This document shows, piece after piece, positions 1,016 through 11,720 of a DNA stretch of 21,881 nt. The position numbers and the translations under genes are program-made. The DNA is taken from the IMG/VR virus record IMGVR_UViG_3300030688_000370, positions 1 to 21,881 of that record; one strand, 5' to 3'. Below the pieces are notes generated by a model that was not told the DNA's origin, did no database searches, and worked only from the letters and a program-made list of their open reading frames with translations. The first letter of the stretch is position 1, and every line of letters begins with the position of its first letter. This DNA is from a virus.

Positions 1016-1627
1016 ATGATCAAGATTCAAGACGTAGCAGTTAGCGAGCTGCCGAAATCCATCGGTGAAGCATTCCAGGGCGGCTTTCTTGGCCGCCGCT
1101 ACAAAGTGGATGGCGAAGAGTACGCCGTCATCGTTGCCGGTAAGGATGGCCGACTGCGCGGCACGTGGGGCGAGTATGGACAGGACGTCGTCGGGGCACG
1201 CAGCTGCATTAACGGCGCTACGAACACCGATGCAATGGCCGAAGCCGGCAGCGACGCAGCCAAGGAAGCCCGCGCACTGCGCCTCGGCGGGTTCGACGAC
1301 TGGCACGTCCCGTCACGCGATCAGCTCGAAATGATCTACCGCGACTTCAAGCCGACCGCCGACGAGAACTATTGCACCTACCGCGACGGCGACAACCCGA
1401 CGACGGGCGAATACCCCTACACGCCGGACAGCCCCGCGCAGACCACTATCGCCGCGTTCCAAGAGGGTGGCGAACATGCCATTGAGCCCGGCTGCTACAT
1501 GTCCAGTACGCAGTACAGCCCTAACGACGCATACGGTCAGAGCGTCGGTGATGGCAGCACTTGCGGCATCATCAAGGACGGCGAGGTGCGCGCGCTGGCC
1601 GTCCGCACGATTCACATCGTCCATTAA
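1016..1627 (+). CDS. DGR variable protein 1, DUF1566/Lcl-C (C-type-lectin-like) domain
   Basis: This 203-residue protein carries the Lcl-C/DUF1566 pattern: GGFDDWHVPSRDQLEMIY around residues 91-108, a GDNPTTGEYPYTPD loop, then SSTQYSPNDAY and a closing VRALAVR. Its last about 35 codons (from residue 165) are the variable repeat VR1, a diversified copy of the TR at 2861. In DGRs this position forms the solvent-exposed ligand-binding face of a C-type-lectin-like fold, and adenine mutagenesis changes its residues. The N-terminal about 80 residues show no signal peptide or membrane segment, so the protein is probably cytoplasmic or virion-attached; its ligand is unknown. The ATG at 1016 follows an AGGT about 8 bases upstream. 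A hairpin terminator follows, then the paralogous second target gene. Compared with TR it carries one non-adenine change. Confidence 0.88.
   Translation: MIKIQDVAVSELPKSIGEAFQGGFLGRRYKVDGEEYAVIVAGKDGRLRGTWGEYGQDVVGARSCINGATNTDAMAEAGSDAAKEARALRLGGFDDWHVPSRDQLEMIYRDFKPTADENYCTYRDGDNPTTGEYPYTPDSPAQTTIAAFQEGGEHAIEPGCYMSSTQYSPNDAYGQSVGDGSTCGIIKDGEVRALAVRTIHIVH
1508..1607 (+). repeat. DGR variable repeat VR1
   Basis: VR1 aligns without gaps to TR 2861-2960. I count 14 differences: 13 at template adenines (to G or T) and one T-to-G at 1544. The last 25 bases (1583-1607, ending gccgtccgca) are identical to TR and VR2 and are the candidate initiation-of-mutagenic-homology region. Beyond 1607 the match is disturbed by what looks like a one-base insertion. 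Confidence 0.93.
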
Positions 1628-1642
1628 GCCATTTTTCAATTT

Positions 1643-1662
1643 AACCCGGCGCCAGCCGGGTT
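1643..1662 (+). terminator. GC-rich hairpin after VR1: 8-bp stem, 4-nt loop, T-rich tail
   Basis: AACCCGGC - GCCA - GCCGGGTT, followed by tcgctttttt. It can act as a rho-independent terminator for the first target gene. It starts 36 bp past the end of VR1, and an 8-bp stem with a 4-nt loop is also the form of the DNA hairpin needed for target recognition in the Bordetella phage DGR, so a double role is possible. Confidence 0.75.
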
Positions 1663-1680
1663 TCGCTTTTTTAAGGGTAA

Positions 1681-2292
1681 ATGATGGGATCGAAAATTGA
1701 GCTGTCCATCAAGCAATTGCTTATCAAAGGCGACTTGGTCATCAACTTCCCGGCTCGTTCCGCGGAGATAATCGAGGCACACATCGGTCAAGCGGCCGAG
1801 TTTGCGATGCCACTGAGCCGCACTCCGTTTCCTGGAGAACTTTGGCCGGGCCAAGGTGGCAGAAATGCCGGGCTGATCGTTCCCGGCGACGGCTCCAGGC
1901 CGTATTACGTGATCGCGGCAGAGCATCCCGATGGCCAGATCGCAGAAATTGTGTGGGGCGGTTACGGCAAAGACGAACCCGGAGCAAAAAGTCACTGGGA
2001 CGGTATGGCCAACACGAAAGCGCTGGTTGAGTCGGAATACGATCATCCGGCAGCAGAATGGGCCTACGGCCTCAATATCGACGGGTATAGCGACTTCTAC
2101 CTCCCGGCACGGCGGGAGCTGGCGCTGGTCGAAATCAACCTGGCCGCTCGACTCCCGAAGGGCTGGCACCACACCAGTACGCAGTACGGCCCTAGCTACG
2201 CATACGTACAGTACTTCGATGATGGCAGCACTTACAGCATCAACAAGGACTGCGAGGTGCGCGCGCTGGCCGTCCGCAGATTGTTTATTTAG
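1681..2292 (+). CDS. DGR variable protein 2, DUF1566/Lcl-C domain
   Basis: A 203-residue paralogue of the first target: YYVIAAEHPDGQIAEIVWGG and YSDFYLPARRELALVEINL align with the corresponding parts of protein 1, and the C-terminus (STQYGPSYAYVQYFDDGSTY to VRALAVRRLFI) is the second variable repeat. The N-terminal about 60 residues differ strongly from protein 1, and the Pro/Tyr-rich insert before the variable region is missing, so the shared part is the lectin-like core. Two adjacent ATGs are available; the second, at 1684, is better spaced (6 nt) from AAGGG at 1673-1677. No signal peptide or membrane helix is seen. The gene is followed by its own hairpin and then by the accessory gene. Its variable repeat differs from TR only at adenines, so it appears to be the more recently rewritten target. 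Ligand unknown. Confidence 0.88.
   Translation: MMGSKIELSIKQLLIKGDLVINFPARSAEIIEAHIGQAAEFAMPLSRTPFPGELWPGQGGRNAGLIVPGDGSRPYYVIAAEHPDGQIAEIVWGGYGKDEPGAKSHWDGMANTKALVESEYDHPAAEWAYGLNIDGYSDFYLPARRELALVEINLAARLPKGWHHTSTQYGPSYAYVQYFDDGSTYSINKDCEVRALAVRRLFI
2179..2282 (+). repeat. DGR variable repeat VR2
   Basis: VR2 aligns without gaps to TR 2861-2964 over 104 bp. I count 10 differences, every one at a TR adenine (five A-to-G, five A-to-T). The 29 bp at 2254-2282 are identical to TR. Altered codons include AAC to TAC, AGC or TGC, AGC to GGC and GAA to GTA. Confidence 0.95.
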
Positions 2293-2308
2293 TCATTCAA
2301 CCATTTAA

Positions 2309-2326
2309 GCGCGGGCTTGCCCGCGC
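2309..2326 (+). terminator. GC-rich hairpin after VR2: 7-bp stem, 4-nt loop, T-tract
   Basis: GCGCGGG - CTTG - CCCGCGC followed by gggttttt. It begins 27 bp downstream of VR2 and parallels the hairpin after VR1. It may terminate transcription of the second target and may also mark the VR2 target for retrohoming. The accessory gene starts only 12 bases after the stem. Confidence 0.75.
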
Positions 2327-2337
2327 GGGTTTTTCTC

Positions 2338-2694
2338 ATGGCACTCCATTCCAGCCTACCGATTTACAAGGACGTTTACGCGCTGACGATGCTCGTTGCT
2401 AATCTCGTCAGTAATATCCCTCGCAAGCACAAACGCCGGGGCGACAAGCTTGATGACGAATGCTCAGAGTTAATGACCCTGGTCTTTCGCGCCAATGTCG
2501 CGCGCAACAAAGTGCCCTATCTGAGCGATCTGGTTGAGCGCGTTGAATCGCTGAACTTCATGTTCAGGCTTTGCTGTGATCTAAAAATTATCAGCGAGCG
2601 GCAGTACGCCCAGGGCGTCGCGCTTCTCGGCGGTATTGGGCGGCAGGCCAACGGCTGGAAAAGGAAGTATGAGTCCGCATCGCCAGCTGCATGA
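2338..2694 (+). CDS. avd: Avd-like DGR accessory protein (four-helix bundle)
   Basis: A 118-residue protein that matches the bAvd / four-helix-bundle family throughout: LPIYKDVYALTMLVANLVSN (helix 1, with the typical LPIYK opening), IPRKHKRRGDKLDDECSELM (helix 2), NVARNKVPYLSDLVERVESL (helix 3), then DLKIISERQYAQGVALLGGI (helix 4) and a GRQANGWKRK tail. In characterised DGRs, Avd is a basic pentameric protein that binds the reverse transcriptase and the TR RNA and is required for cDNA synthesis. The ATG at 2338 is chosen because the upstream in-frame start at 2317 lies inside the terminator hairpin and because the family begins close to LPIY. The order target-target-avd-TR-RT is the same arrangement as in the Bordetella phage BPP-1 cassette. 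Confidence 0.92.
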   Translation: MALHSSLPIYKDVYALTMLVANLVSNIPRKHKRRGDKLDDECSELMTLVFRANVARNKVPYLSDLVERVESLNFMFRLCCDLKIISERQYAQGVALLGGIGRQANGWKRKYESASPAA

Positions 2695-2860
2695 CCGTCA
2701 AGGCCGTCATGCCAGTGCGATTTGAATCTGGTCGTGCCGCTGACCCACAAGGTCACCGATATGCGCTCTAGGGGTACCGCCGGTAAAGCCGGGCTGGCCT
2801 GGCGCAGTTTCCCCGCCGTTCGCTTCGGCATCGACAGGGCGACGTAGCAAGCACGAATTG

Positions 2861-2964
2861 ACGCAGTACAGCCCTAACAACGCATACGAACAGAACTTCG
2901 ATGATGGCAACACTAACAACATCAACAAGGACAACGAGGTGCGCGCGCTGGCCGTCCGCAGATT
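2861..2964 (+). repeat. DGR template repeat (TR), adenine-rich, non-coding
   Basis: This is the invariant template for VR1 and VR2. In the coding frame of the VRs its first 25 codons contain eight AAC codons, and I count 32 adenines in those 75 bases. AAC is the codon most favoured in DGR templates because changing its adenines yields many amino acids and no stop codon. The 3' 29 bases are GC-rich, adenine-poor and identical to VR2. The 166 bp between avd and TR hold no convincing gene and probably form the 5' part of the TR RNA; no promoter could be assigned. The RT start codon is only 5 bases after the TR, so the 3' spacer of the template RNA must overlap the RT coding sequence. Confidence 0.95.
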
Positions 2965-2969
2965 CATCA

Positions 2970-4055
2970 ATGCCAGCTTTTTCGGATCTGGTCGAGGATT
3001 ATTTCGATTGCCGTCGCGCGAAGCGCAACAGCAAATCCGCACTGGCCTTCGAGATCGATCTCGAACAGAACCTGCTGGAGCTTTACGACGAACTGATCGA
3101 GGGCCGCTATCATCCGGGCCGCTCGATCTGTTTCGTCATTACCCGGCCAAAGCCCAGAGAGGTTTGGGCGGCAGAATTCCGGGATCGAATCGTGCACCAC
3201 CTACTTTACAACCGTGTTTCCGATCGCTTTCACCGCGGATTCATTGCGGATTCCTGCGCCTGTATCCCCGGGCGCGGGACGCTATATGCAGCAGAAAGGC
3301 TTGAGCATCACGTCAGGTCAATAACGCAGAACTGGAGCCGTCCAGCCTGGTATATCAAGATGGATTTGTCGAATTTCTTTGTATCGATCGACAAGCACCA
3401 GGTGCGCGCGCAATTGGCGAAACGTATCCACGAACCGTGGTGGATGGCCCTGGCCGACCTGATTCTGTTTCACGACCCGCGTACTGATTTCGAGATGCGC
3501 GGCGATCCGGCGCTGATTGATCGCGTACCGGCACACAAGCGGCTGGTCAACGCTGATGAGCATCACGGTCTGCCAATCGGCAACCTCAGCAGCCAGTTCT
3601 TCGCCAACGTGCTACTGGACTCGCTCGACCAGCACATCAAGCACCGCGTCGGCGCTCGGTATTATTGCCGATATGTGGATGATTTCGTGCTGCTGCATGA
3701 GGACGCGAGCTGGCTCACGGCGGCGCGGGCGCAGATCGAAACGAAACTGGCCGAGCTCGGGCTGCAGCTCAACCCGAGGAAAACTTTCATTCAGCCGGTG
3801 GCGCGCGGCATCGATATGGTCGGCCAGGTCATCAAGCCTTGGTCACGTACCACACGGCGCCGGACGTACCGCCAGGCGATACGACGAGTGGTCGACATCG
3901 ATGAGGGCGATCTATTCGAAACAGCCAATAGTTATTTCGGATTGCTTGGCCAAGCCACCAGCAGCCATCACGACCGCTGCCGACTGGCGAACGCACTGCG
4001 ACGGCGCGGTCAGTCGATAAGCATGGACATCAGAAAGACCTACCGAAAACCATAG
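2970..4055 (+). CDS. DGR reverse transcriptase
   Basis: A 361-residue reverse transcriptase. Visible motifs, numbered from the ATG at 2970: RPKPREVWAAEFRDRIVHHL (residues 59-78, fingers), IKMDLSNFFVSID (129-141, motif A, first catalytic Asp132), GLPIGNLSSQFFAN (200-213, the IGxxxSQ form of motif 4 that separates DGR enzymes from group II intron and retroviral enzymes), YCRYVDDFVLL (232-242, catalytic YVDD) and GLQLNPRKT (264-272). It has no maturase or endonuclease domain. It would copy the TR RNA into adenine-mutated cDNA together with the Avd-like protein. The frame is open back to an ATG at 2901 inside the TR, but 2970 is preferred because family resemblance begins at PAFSDL. A terminator hairpin overlaps the stop codon. 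No catalytic residue is missing, so the enzyme looks functional. Confidence 0.95.
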   Translation: MPAFSDLVEDYFDCRRAKRNSKSALAFEIDLEQNLLELYDELIEGRYHPGRSICFVITRPKPREVWAAEFRDRIVHHLLYNRVSDRFHRGFIADSCACIPGRGTLYAAERLEHHVRSITQNWSRPAWYIKMDLSNFFVSIDKHQVRAQLAKRIHEPWWMALADLILFHDPRTDFEMRGDPALIDRVPAHKRLVNADEHHGLPIGNLSSQFFANVLLDSLDQHIKHRVGARYYCRYVDDFVLLHEDASWLTAARAQIETKLAELGLQLNPRKTFIQPVARGIDMVGQVIKPWSRTTRRRTYRQAIRRVVDIDEGDLFETANSYFGLLGQATSSHHDRCRLANALRRRGQSISMDIRKTYRKP

Positions 4056-4092: not shown

Positions 4093-6015
4093 ATGATAAG
4101 AGATCAATTCTCGCTCTGCGTCGACAACGAAATCATTGTTGATTTGTTTGCTGGCGGCGGGGGCATGTCCGGGGCAATCGAGCGAGCACTCGGGCGTCAC
4201 GTTGATATTGCCATCAACCACGACGCAGACGCCATCAGTATGCACATGGCAAATCACCCGCAAACTGAGCACTACTGCGCAGACGTATTCGAAGTCGACC
4301 CGAGAGAAGCGACCAAAGGCCGCTCTGTCGGCCATCTGCACGGCAGTCCGGATTGCACACACCACAGCCAAGCCGCTGGCGGTCAGCCGCGCAGCAAGAA
4401 AATACGGGGGTTGGGGTGGGTTCTTCCTCGATGGGCAGGTCAAGTCTTGCCGCGCAGTATCAGCATGGAAAACGTCAAGCAAATGCAGCAATGGGGGCCA
4501 CTGATCGCCAAGCGCGACAAGGCCACCGGCAGAGTCATCAAGCTGGACAAGACAGTCGCCGCTCCCGGCGAGCGCGTACCAGTGCAAGAGCAATACCTGG
4601 TCCCTGATCCAAAGCATGTTGGCCGCACCTGGCGGCGGTTCATTCGCACGTTCGAACAAATGGGGTATCAGGTCGAATGGCGCATTCTCTGCGCGGCGGA
4701 CTATGGCGCGGCAACGACGCGAGAACGGTTATTCCTGTTCGCTCGACGTGACGGCACGCCGATTGTCTGGCCGGAGCCGACGTACTTCAAAAACCCGAAG
4801 CGCGGACAGAAGGCGTGGATACCGGCGGCTGACCACATTGACTGGTCTATTCCGTGCCCGTCTATTTTCTCTCGCAAGAAATCGCTGGCAGACGCCACCA
4901 TGCGCCGGATCGCCAAGGGGATGAAAAAGTTCGTTCTCGACTCCGCCGAGCCGTTCATCGTGCCAATTGCTAACTGGTCAGGAGAAACCGTTCAGTCAGC
5001 AGCAGAGCCGCTGCGCACAATCACGGCATGGCCGAAGGGTGGCAGTTTTGCGGTGGCCGCGCCAACGATGGTTCAAGCTGGCCATGGCGACGGTAAGCCT
5101 GGCGGCGTAAAGCGCTGGGGCAGCGGCGCTAAATCAGCAACGGACCCACTCGGCACCGTAACCGCATCGGGAAGCGGCGGCCAAGCGCTGGCATCTGCAA
5201 TCCTTGTTGGTGCTGGCGGACCGAGTTATAGCGGCAAGCCTGCCAGCGTTGGCGCGCCACTCGGCACGATCTTGAAAGAAAACCATCGGAATGTCGCCAC
5301 GGCCTACCTGATGCAAGCCAATGGCGGGTTCAACACCACGCCAGGCCACGACCTGCGCGAACCGTCCAGCACCATCACCAACACCGGCAGCCAGCAGCAG
5401 TTGATCGCGGCCACGCTGGCCCATCTACGCGGCAACTGCGATGCCCGTGATGTAGCAGATCCGCTCATGACGATCAGTGCCGGCGGCGAGCATCACGGCT
5501 TGATCGCTGCGCACCTGCAGCGCCAGTTCGGAAACTCGGTCGGCCAGCCGGTAGATGATCCAGTCGGCGCAATCATGGCAGGCGGTGGCGGCAAGACTGC
5601 ATTGGTTGAATATCAGCTGAGCCGTGAACATGAAGCCGGTGCCCTCCGCTGTGCGGCATTCCTGATCAGCTACTACGGCACCGACAACGTCAGCGGTATG
5701 ACTGACCCGATGCCTACAGCAACGACCCGGGACCGCCTGGCGCTGGTTACTGTCTGGCTCAAGGGCGAGCCGTGGGTAATTGTTGATATCGGCCTGCGCA
5801 TGCTGGCCCCGCCAGAACTGTACGGGTGCCAAGGCTTTGCCCCTGACTACATCATTGATCGCGGACACGATGGGCGGGTGTTCTCAAAATCAGCGCAGGT
5901 CAGGATGGTAGGAAATTCCGTCAGCCCACCTCCAGCTATCGCACTCATGCGAGCTAATTGCATGGATCTGGCGACATGGACATGGAAAGAAATGCGAGAA
6001 CTGGAGGCCGCATGA
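4093..6015 (+). CDS. DNA cytosine-5 methyltransferase with a repeat-containing recognition region
   Basis: A 640-residue C5-type DNA methyltransferase. From the ATG at 4093 (GGAG at 4084-4087, well spaced): motif I VDLFAGGGGMSGAIE (16-30), motif IV GSPDC with catalytic Cys88, motif VI ENV (126-128), TTRERLFLF (208-216, motif VIII-like), and motif X GNSVSPP (607-613). It transfers methyl groups from S-adenosylmethionine to C5 of cytosine, and in phages usually protects DNA from host restriction. The protein is longer than a typical 330-450-residue enzyme because residues 300-550 contain about seven degenerate units built on DPLxTITAxGG. No cognate restriction enzyme gene is seen, so it looks like an orphan enzyme; the target sequence cannot be predicted. 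The stop overlaps the next start (ATGA). Confidence 0.92.
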   Translation: MIRDQFSLCVDNEIIVDLFAGGGGMSGAIERALGRHVDIAINHDADAISMHMANHPQTEHYCADVFEVDPREATKGRSVGHLHGSPDCTHHSQAAGGQPRSKKIRGLGWVLPRWAGQVLPRSISMENVKQMQQWGPLIAKRDKATGRVIKLDKTVAAPGERVPVQEQYLVPDPKHVGRTWRRFIRTFEQMGYQVEWRILCAADYGAATTRERLFLFARRDGTPIVWPEPTYFKNPKRGQKAWIPAADHIDWSIPCPSIFSRKKSLADATMRRIAKGMKKFVLDSAEPFIVPIANWSGETVQSAAEPLRTITAWPKGGSFAVAAPTMVQAGHGDGKPGGVKRWGSGAKSATDPLGTVTASGSGGQALASAILVGAGGPSYSGKPASVGAPLGTILKENHRNVATAYLMQANGGFNTTPGHDLREPSSTITNTGSQQQLIAATLAHLRGNCDARDVADPLMTISAGGEHHGLIAAHLQRQFGNSVGQPVDDPVGAIMAGGGGKTALVEYQLSREHEAGALRCAAFLISYYGTDNVSGMTDPMPTATTRDRLALVTVWLKGEPWVIVDIGLRMLAPPELYGCQGFAPDYIIDRGHDGRVFSKSAQVRMVGNSVSPPPAIALMRANCMDLATWTWKEMRELEAA

Positions 6016-8836: not shown

Positions 8837-9886
8837 ATGGGCAGAAAGCCAACCGTAAATTTCAACCTCCCAAAGGGTATGCGCGCTCGCCCGCAGCGGA
8901 GTGGGAAGGTTTTCTATTACTACGATGCAGGCGGGAAGCCTCGCAAGGAAATCCCCCTCGGTTCCGATTACCCGCTTGCGGTAAAGAAATGGTCTGAGCT
9001 TGAAGTGGCCAAGGTTCCTGTTGCGGCGCGCCCAACATTCAAGGATGCAGCAGACCGGTATATGAGAGAAGTGCTCCCATTCAAAGCACCGAAAACTCAA
9101 TGTGAGAATCTACGCGAGCTTAAGCGCCTTGAGGATTTTTTCTGCAACCCGGCGCCGGCGCCACTCGATGAGATCGAGCCGATGCACATCCGCATGTATT
9201 TAGACCACCGCAGCGCCTCCCCTGTCGCGGCCAACCGGGAAAAAGCTCTATTCAGTCACGTATGGAACAAGGCAAGAGGATGGGGATATACCAGCCTTGC
9301 CAATCCATGTGCGGGCATTAAGGGTAATACGGAGAAGGGTCGCAACATCTACATTGAGGACAATATCTTTACCGCCGTCTATGAGGCTGCTGACGAGGCG
9401 CTACGTGACGCAATGGATCTTGCGTATCTGACAGGCCAGCGGCCTGGGGACGTGTTGGCAATGACGGAGGATGACATCAAGAATGGTGAGGTGTGCATTC
9501 AGCAGGCCAAGACCGAAAAGAAGCTGCGGATCACCATCATAGGCGAGCTGGAGACATTGATGGATAGGATGATGGCACGCAAGGCTATCTGCAAAACGCC
9601 AGCGCTGTACCTGGTGGTCAACGAAACCGGCGGCAGATTGACCAAGGGCGCGCTACGGGGGCGTTTCGAGAAGGCGCGCGAAGCTGCTGCAACAGCAAAC
9701 CCGACAATGGCAGACGCAATCAAGGCGTTTCAATTCCGCGACCTGCGCGCAAAGGCCGGTACAGACAAGGCGGAAAGTGCTGGCGATATTCGTCAGGCGC
9801 AGAAGCAATTAGGTCATTCGTCCGTCAAGATGACAGAGCACTATGTGCGAGACCGGAAGGGTGATAAAGTAGGGCCAACGCGCTAA
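8837..9886 (+). CDS. int: Tyrosine-type phage integrase
   Basis: A 349-residue tyrosine recombinase. The N-terminal region (about 1-60) looks like an arm-binding domain (KVFYYYDAGGKPRKEIPLGS), residues 65-165 like the core-binding SAM-like domain, and the rest is the catalytic domain. Catalytic residues: Arg202 in TGQRPGDVL, a Lys in the KTEKK turn (225-229), Arg304 in FRDLRAK (the usual HxxR box, with Arg in the first position), His327 in QLGHSSV, and nucleophile Tyr336 in MTEHYVR. It joins attP and attB. The gene reads toward the att core, which starts about 115 bp after its stop. No truncation is visible, so it should be active. Confidence 0.93.
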   Translation: MGRKPTVNFNLPKGMRARPQRSGKVFYYYDAGGKPRKEIPLGSDYPLAVKKWSELEVAKVPVAARPTFKDAADRYMREVLPFKAPKTQCENLRELKRLEDFFCNPAPAPLDEIEPMHIRMYLDHRSASPVAANREKALFSHVWNKARGWGYTSLANPCAGIKGNTEKGRNIYIEDNIFTAVYEAADEALRDAMDLAYLTGQRPGDVLAMTEDDIKNGEVCIQQAKTEKKLRITIIGELETLMDRMMARKAICKTPALYLVVNETGGRLTKGALRGRFEKAREAAATANPTMADAIKAFQFRDLRAKAGTDKAESAGDIRQAQKQLGHSSVKMTEHYVRDRKGDKVGPTR

Positions 9887-10216: not shown

Positions 10217-10289
10217 CACCCAAACTAAGCCCCACAACTGAACTGCACCCCAAAAGTTGGACACCGATCCAACCTTTGGGGTGCAGTTC

Positions 10290-10820
10290 ATGGCAAAACA
10301 TAATGAAGATTTCAAACGAGCCATAGTTCAAGAGTATTTGGCTGGATCTAGGGGGTACAGAGCACTTGGAGCCAAGTACGAAGTGGACCAAGCGACGATC
10401 CGCAAGTGGGTAACGAGCTATCACCATCATGGCGATGCCGGGCTCTGCAAGAAATTCAGCCGCTATAGCGCTGAGTTCAAGCTTTCGGTGTTGCAGCGCA
10501 TGTGGAAGGAAGAGCTTTCTTGCCGCCAGGCAATTGCCTTGTTTGATATCAGGGGAGGCACTGGGGTCGTCTCTACCTGGGAACGCCAGTATCATGAGGG
10601 TGGTCTGGATGCTCTCAAACCCAAGCCCCGAGGTCGCCCCACGACAATGACACGCCCTGACACCCCCAAGCCCGAGCTACCGATGCCTGAGGAAGCGCGT
10701 ACGCTGGAACAACTCGAAAAAGAGAACGAACTTCTGCGTGCGGAGGTGGCGTATCTAAAAAAATTGGATGCCTTGGTTCGAACCGCTCGGCAAGCTGCGC
10801 CCAAAAAGCGCAAGCCGTGA
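10290..10820 (+). CDS. IS3-family transposase OrfA (helix-turn-helix protein)
   Basis: A 176-residue protein beginning MAKHNEDFKRAIVQEYLAGS. It contains two helix-turn-helix units of the type found in IS150-like OrfA (YRALGAKYEVDQATIRKWV, then CRQAIALFDIRGGTGVVSTW), which bind the terminal repeats, and a C-terminal leucine-zipper-like segment (EQLEKENELLRAEVAYLKKL). The ATG at 10290 immediately follows the terminal palindrome; the in-frame ATG at 10257 lies within the palindrome and is unlikely. OrfA alone usually inhibits or regulates transposition. An A7 run near its end marks a frameshift site into orfB. Confidence 0.92.
   Translation: MAKHNEDFKRAIVQEYLAGSRGYRALGAKYEVDQATIRKWVTSYHHHGDAGLCKKFSRYSAEFKLSVLQRMWKEELSCRQAIALFDIRGGTGVVSTWERQYHEGGLDALKPKPRGRPTTMTRPDTPKPELPMPEEARTLEQLEKENELLRAEVAYLKKLDALVRTARQAAPKKRKP
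10757..10763 (+). promoter_or_regulatory. Probable programmed -1 ribosomal frameshift site (A7)
   Basis: Seven adenines in ctAAAAAAAttgg near the end of orfA. The -1 frame is open from here into orfB without a stop (checked codon by codon to 10822), so slippage would give an OrfAB fusion transposase, as is known for IS150-type elements. Confidence 0.7.
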
Positions 10821-11653
10821 TCGAGCTAAGGCAAGAATATGCGCTACCGGCTTTACTGAGGGTGGCTCAGCTGTCGCGTAGCACGTTCTACTACCAAGCC
10901 AAGGTGCAGCAGACCGGCGATAGACATGCTGACATGAAGGACCGGATTCAAACCATCTTTACACGCCATAAGGGCCGCTATGGCTATCGACGCATTACGG
11001 CTGAGTTACGGCATTCGGGAACCGTGATCAACCACAAAACCGTGCAGCGGTTAATGCGGATGCTTGGCCTCAAGTCGTTGGTGCGTCCCAAGAAATATCG
11101 GTCCTACCGGGGCGGCTGCCACGTTGACGTGCCGAACGTGCTGAATCGGCAGTTCCAGGCAGACCGGCCGAACCAACGGTGGGTGACCGATGTGACCGAG
11201 TTCAACGTGCGAGGCGACAAGCTTTACCTTTCGCCGGTGATGGATCTCTACAATGGGGAGATCATCGCCTACGAGATGCAAGAGCGACCGCACTTTCCCT
11301 TGGTTGGCAATATGCTCCGAAAGGCGTTGGCTAAACTGACGAGCGCAGATGCTCCATTGCTGCACTCAGATCAGGGATGGCAATACAAGATGTCCGCCTA
11401 TCGACACCAACTCGCATCTCATGGGCTCACCCAGAGTATGTCGCGCAAGGGAAATTGCCTGGATAATGCTGCGATGGAGAGTTTCTTTGGCACGCTGAAA
11501 TCGGAGTTCTTCTACCTGAATCGCTTCGTGAGTATCGGTGCATTGCAAGCAGGCATTCGGAAGTATATTCACTACTACAACCACGAACGTATCAAGCTCA
11601 AATTAAAAGGCCTGAGTCCTGTGATGTACAGAACTCAGGCCTTGCGGCCCTAG
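10817..11653 (+). CDS. IS3-family transposase OrfB (DDE integrase core)
   Basis: A 278-residue catalytic part of the transposase. It has an N-terminal HTH_21-like segment (HKGRYGYRRITAELRHSG) and an rve-type core with Asp125 (WVTDVTEF), Asp185 (LLHSDQGWQY) and Glu221 (DNAAMESFFGTLKSE), 35 residues apart for the last pair as expected of IS3. The C-terminus (YNHERIKLKLKGLSPVMYRT) is typical. Its apparent start is GTG at 10817, overlapping the orfA stop, but most product probably comes as an OrfAB fusion by frameshifting at 10757-10763. No disabling mutation is visible. Confidence 0.93.
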   Translation: MIELRQEYALPALLRVAQLSRSTFYYQAKVQQTGDRHADMKDRIQTIFTRHKGRYGYRRITAELRHSGTVINHKTVQRLMRMLGLKSLVRPKKYRSYRGGCHVDVPNVLNRQFQADRPNQRWVTDVTEFNVRGDKLYLSPVMDLYNGEIIAYEMQERPHFPLVGNMLRKALAKLTSADAPLLHSDQGWQYKMSAYRHQLASHGLTQSMSRKGNCLDNAAMESFFGTLKSEFFYLNRFVSIGALQAGIRKYIHYYNHERIKLKLKGLSPVMYRTQALRP

Positions 11654-11720
11654 CCGTAAACTGTCCAACTTTGTGGGGTCAGTTCAACTCGCGGGCTTTT
11701 TTACGCCCATAAGGAACGCC

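Follow-up and report, generated by a model that had tools for sequence, protein, structure and literature searches.

A 21,881-bp IMG/VR virus record, analyzed here over its full length and called the window, carries a complete, genuine diversity-generating retroelement (DGR) with two targets. We put the probability at about 0.7 that this element is a temperate-phage DGR from a lineage distinct from that of BPP-1, with the RT-15 RNA 5' of its template repeat (TR), an octamer array that tags the acceptor, and targets that are not tail proteins. An earlier reading made without database searches (the sequence-only reading) had placed the cassette at 1016 to 4055, in the order target 1 with variable repeat 1 (VR1), target 2 with VR2, avd, TR, and reverse transcriptase (RT). 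Our re-analysis agrees with both the order and the span. That reading had missed the structured RNA between avd and TR (2678 to 2863) and the octamer arrays after the VRs. The features are as follows.

1016 to 1627, plus strand: target 1 (203 amino acids, Lcl_C/C-type-lectin fold), with the VR at its C terminus; from the open reading frame (ORF), profile matches, and model.
1508 to 1607, plus strand: VR1; 14 mismatches to TR, 13 at template adenines.
1623 to 1646, plus strand: degenerate octamer array 3' of VR1, ATTAAGCC ATTTTTCA ATTTAACC, with the stop codon inside it; octamer scores 4.6, 2.1, and 10.6.
1643 to 1662, plus strand: 8-bp hairpin with loop GCCA and a T-run close by; terminator-like, not a GRNA loop.
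1681 to 2292, plus strand: target 2 (203 amino acids, Lcl_C/C-type-lectin fold); from the ORF, phrog_4245, and 8q4e.
2179 to 2282, plus strand: VR2; 10 mismatches to TR, each at a template adenine.
2287 to 2310, plus strand: octamer array 3' of VR2, ATTTAGTC ATTCAACC ATTTAAGC; octamer scores 10.3, 10.7, and 5.6.
2309 to 2326, plus strand: 7-bp GC hairpin with loop CTTG and a T-run; terminator-like.
2338 to 2694, plus strand: avd (118 amino acids); PF22296 and phrog_3206.
2678 to 2863, plus strand: RT-15 structured RNA (RF03018), which spans the region from the avd 3' end to the TR 5' end; 161.8 bits, gathering cutoff 82.
2861 to 2964, plus strand: TR, with a GC-rich 3' end like an initiation of mutagenic homing (IMH) site; from alignment to the VRs.
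2970 to 4055, plus strand: DGR RT (361 amino acids), starting 5 nt past TR; PF00078 and phrog_1423.
8837 to 9886, plus strand: tyrosine integrase, downstream of the DGR and on the same strand; PF00589, 1e-20.

Ungapped alignment of TR with VR2 gave 10 mismatches in 104 positions, all at TR adenines (hypergeometric P = 7e-6), and alignment with VR1 gave 14 mismatches in 100 positions, 13 at adenines (P = 1.4e-6). Aligning the three intervals thus reproduced the mismatch counts of the sequence-only reading, and its count of eight AAC codons among the first 25 TR codons was also correct. Between them, VR1 and VR2 have changed 16 of the 35 template adenines. Adenine mutation of AAC gives only NNC codons, and therefore stops never arise. 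The sequence supports a model in which a transcript of avd, RT-15, TR, and RT supplies the adenine-rich template and adenine-mutated cDNA has replaced the 3' ends of the two C-type-lectin genes, changing AAC to other NNC codons. The sole non-adenine change, in VR1, is T to G at TR position 2897.

To place the window, we scanned 112 loci of its clade for adenine-tolerant repeats. TR-VR pairs were obtained at 107 loci, and 208 pairs were at least 75 nt long. Most loci carry two VRs upstream of avd (two at 77 loci, three at 14). In the 208 pairs, 2550 of 2624 mismatches were at a template adenine, a bias that is partly built in because the scan favors adenine mismatches; the window's own alignment is independent of the scan. 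T to G, the type seen at TR 2897, was the commonest (17) of the 74 non-adenine mismatches in these pairs.

The proteins of the cassette are those of a DGR. Avd matched PF22296 (bAvd, 2.1e-11, above the cutoff) and phrog_3206 (4.7e-21), and RT matched PF00078 (1.1e-17) and phrog_1423 (5e-108). The RT motifs YVDD and LPIGNLSSQ are present, in agreement with the sequence-only reading that the catalytic motifs are complete, and the frames of avd, RT, and both targets are intact. The RT start had been placed inside TR. Because homologues begin at residues 1 to 6 of the protein that starts at ATG 2970, this ATG is most likely the start, outside TR. We then built a maximum-likelihood tree of 40 RTs. 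A 100/99 branch split 18 RTs from loci with RT-15 and the array, the window's included, from 13 BPP-1-type RTs, and the RTs of Melainabacteria and other DGRs fell outside both groups.

BPP-1 and the window share adenine mutagenesis between TR and VR, Avd, a DGR-type RT, a C-type-lectin target, and a GC-rich, IMH-like end. However, BPP-1 has a GRNA hairpin after its VR and one tail target, whereas the window has octamers and two targets away from the tail genes. Homing in BPP-1 requires a hairpin just 3' of the VR, with a GC stem of 7 to 10 bp and a GRNA loop, which was proposed as a conserved requirement (PMC3240598); a later survey ascribes the VR hairpin to a subset of DGRs (PMC3521204). With the same detector, we found a GRNA-loop hairpin in 47 of 55 BPP-1-type pairs but in 0 of 212 clade VRs. 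GC hairpins of at least 6 bp were present in 17% of clade VR flanks versus 10% of random windows. These two results rule out a conserved hairpin after the VRs as a feature of the clade.

In place of the hairpin, the 40 nt after clade VRs show an 8-nt periodicity, with lag-8 identity of 0.439 versus 0.265 in shuffled sequence (z 25.7). The unit is roughly [A/C]TT[C/T]A[A/T/G][T/C]C, its commonest start is 10 nt past the IMH sequence GTCCG, and 119 of 169 consecutive matches are spaced exactly 8 nt apart. As a check on circularity, we trained an octamer matrix on half of the loci and scored the held-out half. Two or more in-step copies were found in 86% of 59 independent flanks, compared to 0.9% of random windows and 0.2% of shuffles, and at least three copies were found in 36% of flanks, compared to 0.4% of random windows and no shuffles. 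Strict arrays (at least three copies) numbered 81 on both strands of 1.15 Mb of clade DNA; 78 are at VR ends, and the other 3 are at sites where an undetected target is expected. We found no array after TR, and BPP-1-type loci had none (0 of 110 rows). In the window, the three copies after VR2 are the only such array. An array just 3' of each VR and absent after TR may mark the acceptor and make homing one-way, and it could thereby substitute for the hairpin/cruciform of BPP-1.

The same data bear on the view that the window works like BPP-1 throughout, with the hairpins after VR1 and VR2 as the cruciform signal and the octamers incidental. These hairpins, of 8 and 7 bp, lie 35 and 26 nt past the VRs, and BPP-1 depends on such a structure, whose spacing from the VR can vary (PMC3240598). 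However, the window loops are GCCA and CTTG rather than GRNA, a loop that the detector found in most BPP-1-type pairs and never in the clade. GC hairpins occur in a minority of clade VR flanks while the octamers are near-universal, and the clade TR is without a 3' spacer. We regard this view as improbable, the least likely of those considered.

Another explanation for the octamers is that they are a transcription or translation feature of target 3' ends, for example, three-frame stops that guard against retrohoming frameshifts. An 8-nt period moves the frame with every copy, the target's own stop is usually inside the first copy, and stops in all three frames occur within 40 nt in 51% of held-out flanks versus 7% of shuffles. 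Yet a stop trinucleotide is present in only 32% of second octamers, whose commonest base at position 4, C, abolishes the stop. The array is also fixed in position relative to the IMH and absent after other genes. We think that this explanation is unlikely, and the second copy, which is not enriched for stops, does not favor a triple-frame stop cassette. Recent tandem duplication was also rejected: neighboring octamers are about as similar to each other (0.645) as they are to octamers of other loci (0.621). With recent duplication rejected and no excess of stops in the second copy, the array is better explained as an iterated site for binding or pairing than as a product of slippage or a cassette of stops.

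The second departure from BPP-1 concerns the RNA. The BPP-1 avd and TR are directly adjacent, and a structured spacer of about 140 nt, the Phage_DGR RNA, lies 3' of TR between TR and brt; a spacer adenine primes the cDNA (PMC12875486). The window and its clade are the mirror image of this, with RT-15 5' of TR and TR abutting RT. The RT-15 match in the window is full length, at nearly twice the gathering cutoff. RT-15 was 5' of TR in 16 of 16 RT-bearing clade loci tested, the outlier L114 (Telmatospirillum) among them, and Phage_DGR (RF03022) was 3' of TR in 15 of 18 BPP-1-type loci tested. In these loci, we found neither RT-15 in the BPP-1 type nor Phage_DGR in the clade, and RF03022 had no match anywhere in the window. 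Among 108 loci, all except two have 138 to 191 nt between avd and TR, and all except three have a TR-RT gap of -1 to 24 nt. One of the exceptions, L010, has a TR-RT gap of about 534 nt (4466 to 5001), possibly an insertion.

TR abuts the RT start codon, and therefore there is no 3' priming spacer of the Rfam Phage_DGR kind. We also considered a BPP-1-like spacer concealed in the 5' end of RT. Synonymous conservation of RT codons 1 to 50 is not raised, and therefore no spacer is evident there. The Rfam entry for RT-15 describes a small RNA gene whose name refers to reverse transcriptase. Its place, its conservation, and the missing alternative suggest that it is a working DGR RNA. RT-15 may be the domain held by Avd-RT, replacing the 3' spacer of BPP-1. 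A conserved unpaired stretch at RT-15 model positions of about 43 to 56 (window about 2720 to 2733), UUUGAAUC, resembles the target octamer in the sense orientation, perhaps by chance. Our literature search, which did not take in Wu 2018 (a large DGR survey) or Weinberg 2017 (the source of RT-15), returned no report of the octamer array and no paper linking RT-15 to DGR template RNA, and the novelty of both is unproven.

The two C-type-lectin-fold targets of the sequence-only reading were borne out by structural models and fold searches. Target 1 matched phrog_4245 (4e-26) and, below the cutoff, PF07603 (1.1e-5); its AlphaFold model has a pLDDT of 95.3. Target 2 matched phrog_4245 (1.5e-24) and gave a model with a pLDDT of 86. 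For both, the closest solved structure is the Legionella Lcl C-terminal domain, 8q4e (TMt 0.70 for target 1; E 5.8e-5 for target 2). In each protein, the VR lies at the C terminus, with the variable residues at 168 to 189 in target 1 and 170 to 191 in target 2.

The usual role of a phage DGR is to switch host tropism (PMC8144416, PMC10743442), as with Mtd in BPP-1, and the targets could thus be virion receptor-binding proteins; C-terminal domains of tail fiber proteins are among the structural neighbors of target 1. However, both targets are short, stand-alone proteins and not fibers. Their genes lie in the integrase module and not among the tail genes, where an Mtd-like target would be found. 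In the window, the DGR and the integrase share a strand, and the baseplate and tail genes are encoded on the other one. An integrase is present in 21 of 30 longer records and is downstream on the DGR strand in 15 of the 21, and baseplate J is on the strand opposite the cassette in 8 of 9 records. In Magia and Haboob, the cassette is between the repressor and the integrase. With an integrase-side cassette and short, stand-alone targets, an Mtd-like tail role is therefore not the default, and we consider it doubtful although less so than the alternatives above. Instead, targets beside the integrase may be made outside the late program, early or in the lysogen, and would bind varied ligands inside the lysogen or on its surface. 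ARAGORN did not find the tRNA attachment site that we had suspected downstream of the integrase.

Several close relatives differ from each other in the way expected of active DGRs. The L017/L018 pair has 14 VR differences, 14 of 14 at template adenines, with 0 of 2563 other positions and 0 of 110 TR positions changed. L032/L063 has 33 VR differences, 32 at adenines, with 4 of 2670 other positions and no TR position changed. All VR differences are at adenines in L077/L078 (46 of 46), L029/L033 (43 of 43), and the Cupriavidus pauculus pair L101/L103 (25 of 25). Further close sister pairs have no VR change, like the window and its near copy. Judged from these comparisons, sister elements of the clade are active. 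The sequence-only reading had proposed to look for VR variation confined to adenines beside an unchanged TR; this is seen in sister elements and not in the window copy. The activity that it inferred for this copy is no more than a possibility, as the one contig nearly identical to the window (L002/L165, 100% across about 9 kb) carries identical VRs.

This contig also fits the idea that the window copy is a decaying, inactive DGR, as do the one non-adenine change and the degenerate array of VR1. A sister phage (L162 to L164, records identical to each other) retains both target ORFs, but its TR, RT-15, the end of avd, and most of RT are gone. However, every frame and the RT catalytic motif are intact in the window, all 10 VR2 differences are at adenines, and the two contigs may represent a single clone or have been drawn from related samples. 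Decay is therefore a minor possibility in our assessment, about on a par with the stop cassette. In the sister phage, the second VR has 14 differences from the window TR, 12 at adenines, and is a fossil of past diversification. Its targets are open without the machinery, which suggests that the targets have a use of their own, independent of the DGR machinery. At this deletion-bearing locus (L164 6084 to 7656; also L162 and L163), the first VR appears to be derived from a TR other than that of the second.

A number of observations weigh against our reading of the window as a separate temperate-phage lineage with RT-15, an octamer tag, and non-tail targets. The array after VR1 is degenerate and fails the strict tandem criterion, and 31 of 212 clade VRs are without two strict tandem octamers. 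Terminator-like hairpins are close to both window VRs, and the array could serve transcription or translation. A function for RT-15 as a DGR RNA is argued from its position and conservation. Finally, there is no VR change between the window and its near-identical contig.

Two cis features are thought to run the mechanism, and the clade differs from the prototype in both. A lineage that has neither the hairpin nor the 3' spacer and still varies its VRs in nature would make both of these properties of a single branch. It would also provide a second, testable solution to how acceptor is told from donor and where cDNA starts. The array offers a simple sequence tag for locating remote targets or building diversification tools. 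The placement of RT-15 suggests a function for this Rfam RNA, and the setting of the cassette raises the prospect of phage DGR products with uses other than tail tropism. The wider proposal concerns proteobacterial phage DGRs: one large, monophyletic lineage of them would organize its template RNA with a 5' RT-15 domain, do without a 3' priming spacer, and recognize acceptors by an iterated 8-nt array rather than a DNA hairpin. We give this proposal an even chance; if it is true, what the element rewrites would be set by a short, portable tag.

More than 30,000 DGRs have been catalogued (PMC8144416). The window RT is 100% identical to that of contig L002, 80% identical to that of L003, and 75% identical to that of a Paludibacterium purpuratum prophage (L082). 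It is 60 to 63% identical to the RTs of cultured temperate phages, including Burkholderia phage Magia, Pseudomonas phages Haboob, Cruim01, LPPA56, SC_8_H2H8_2017, and VB_PaD_phPA-G, and Shewanella phage QDWS. Like the window, Magia and these relatives have the target-avd-TR-RT order and short lectin-fold targets; unlike it, they have other targets and another phage backbone. The Magia announcement describes a DGR with RT, Avd, and two short targets, so the clade was already in public phages, and it is silent on RNA placement and the array (PMC7883833). Multi-VR cassettes with DUF1566 targets are catalogued for Proteobacteria in another survey (PMC6642488). A two-target DGR of the window's sort is already reported, and as a DGR it is ordinary. 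Two sets of catalogue classes are similar in geometry and VR number, namely, DiGReF group 3, in which TR overlaps the end of the annotated RT ORF, and the multi-VR MetaCSST G2/G4. DUF1566 (Lcl_C) targets are common in them and they are Proteobacteria enriched, as here; the portions of these sources available to us describe no RNA or 3' signal like that of the window's clade (PMC3521204, PMC6642488).

Other features of the window lie outside the cassette. A truncated rdgC (49 to 549) at the start of the window is adjoined by a small ORF (577 to 828) that matches Pfam Csm1_N and, weakly, an Rz-like spanin PHROG. Just upstream of target 1, at 928 to 979, the loop of a terminator-like hairpin holds TGAACTGCACCCCAAAATTTGGACACCGATCCAACCTTTGGGGTGCAGTTCA, a palindrome of insertion sequence (IS)-end sequence. 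This sequence recurs at about 10239 to 10290, the left end of an IS3-family insertion (10239 to 11690; transposase ORFs 10257 to 10820 and 10817 to 11653) between the integrase and the lysis and tail genes. Past the right end of the IS3 element comes a terminator tail, GCGGGCTTTTTTACGCCCATA, that is almost identical to the tail at 985 to 1005.

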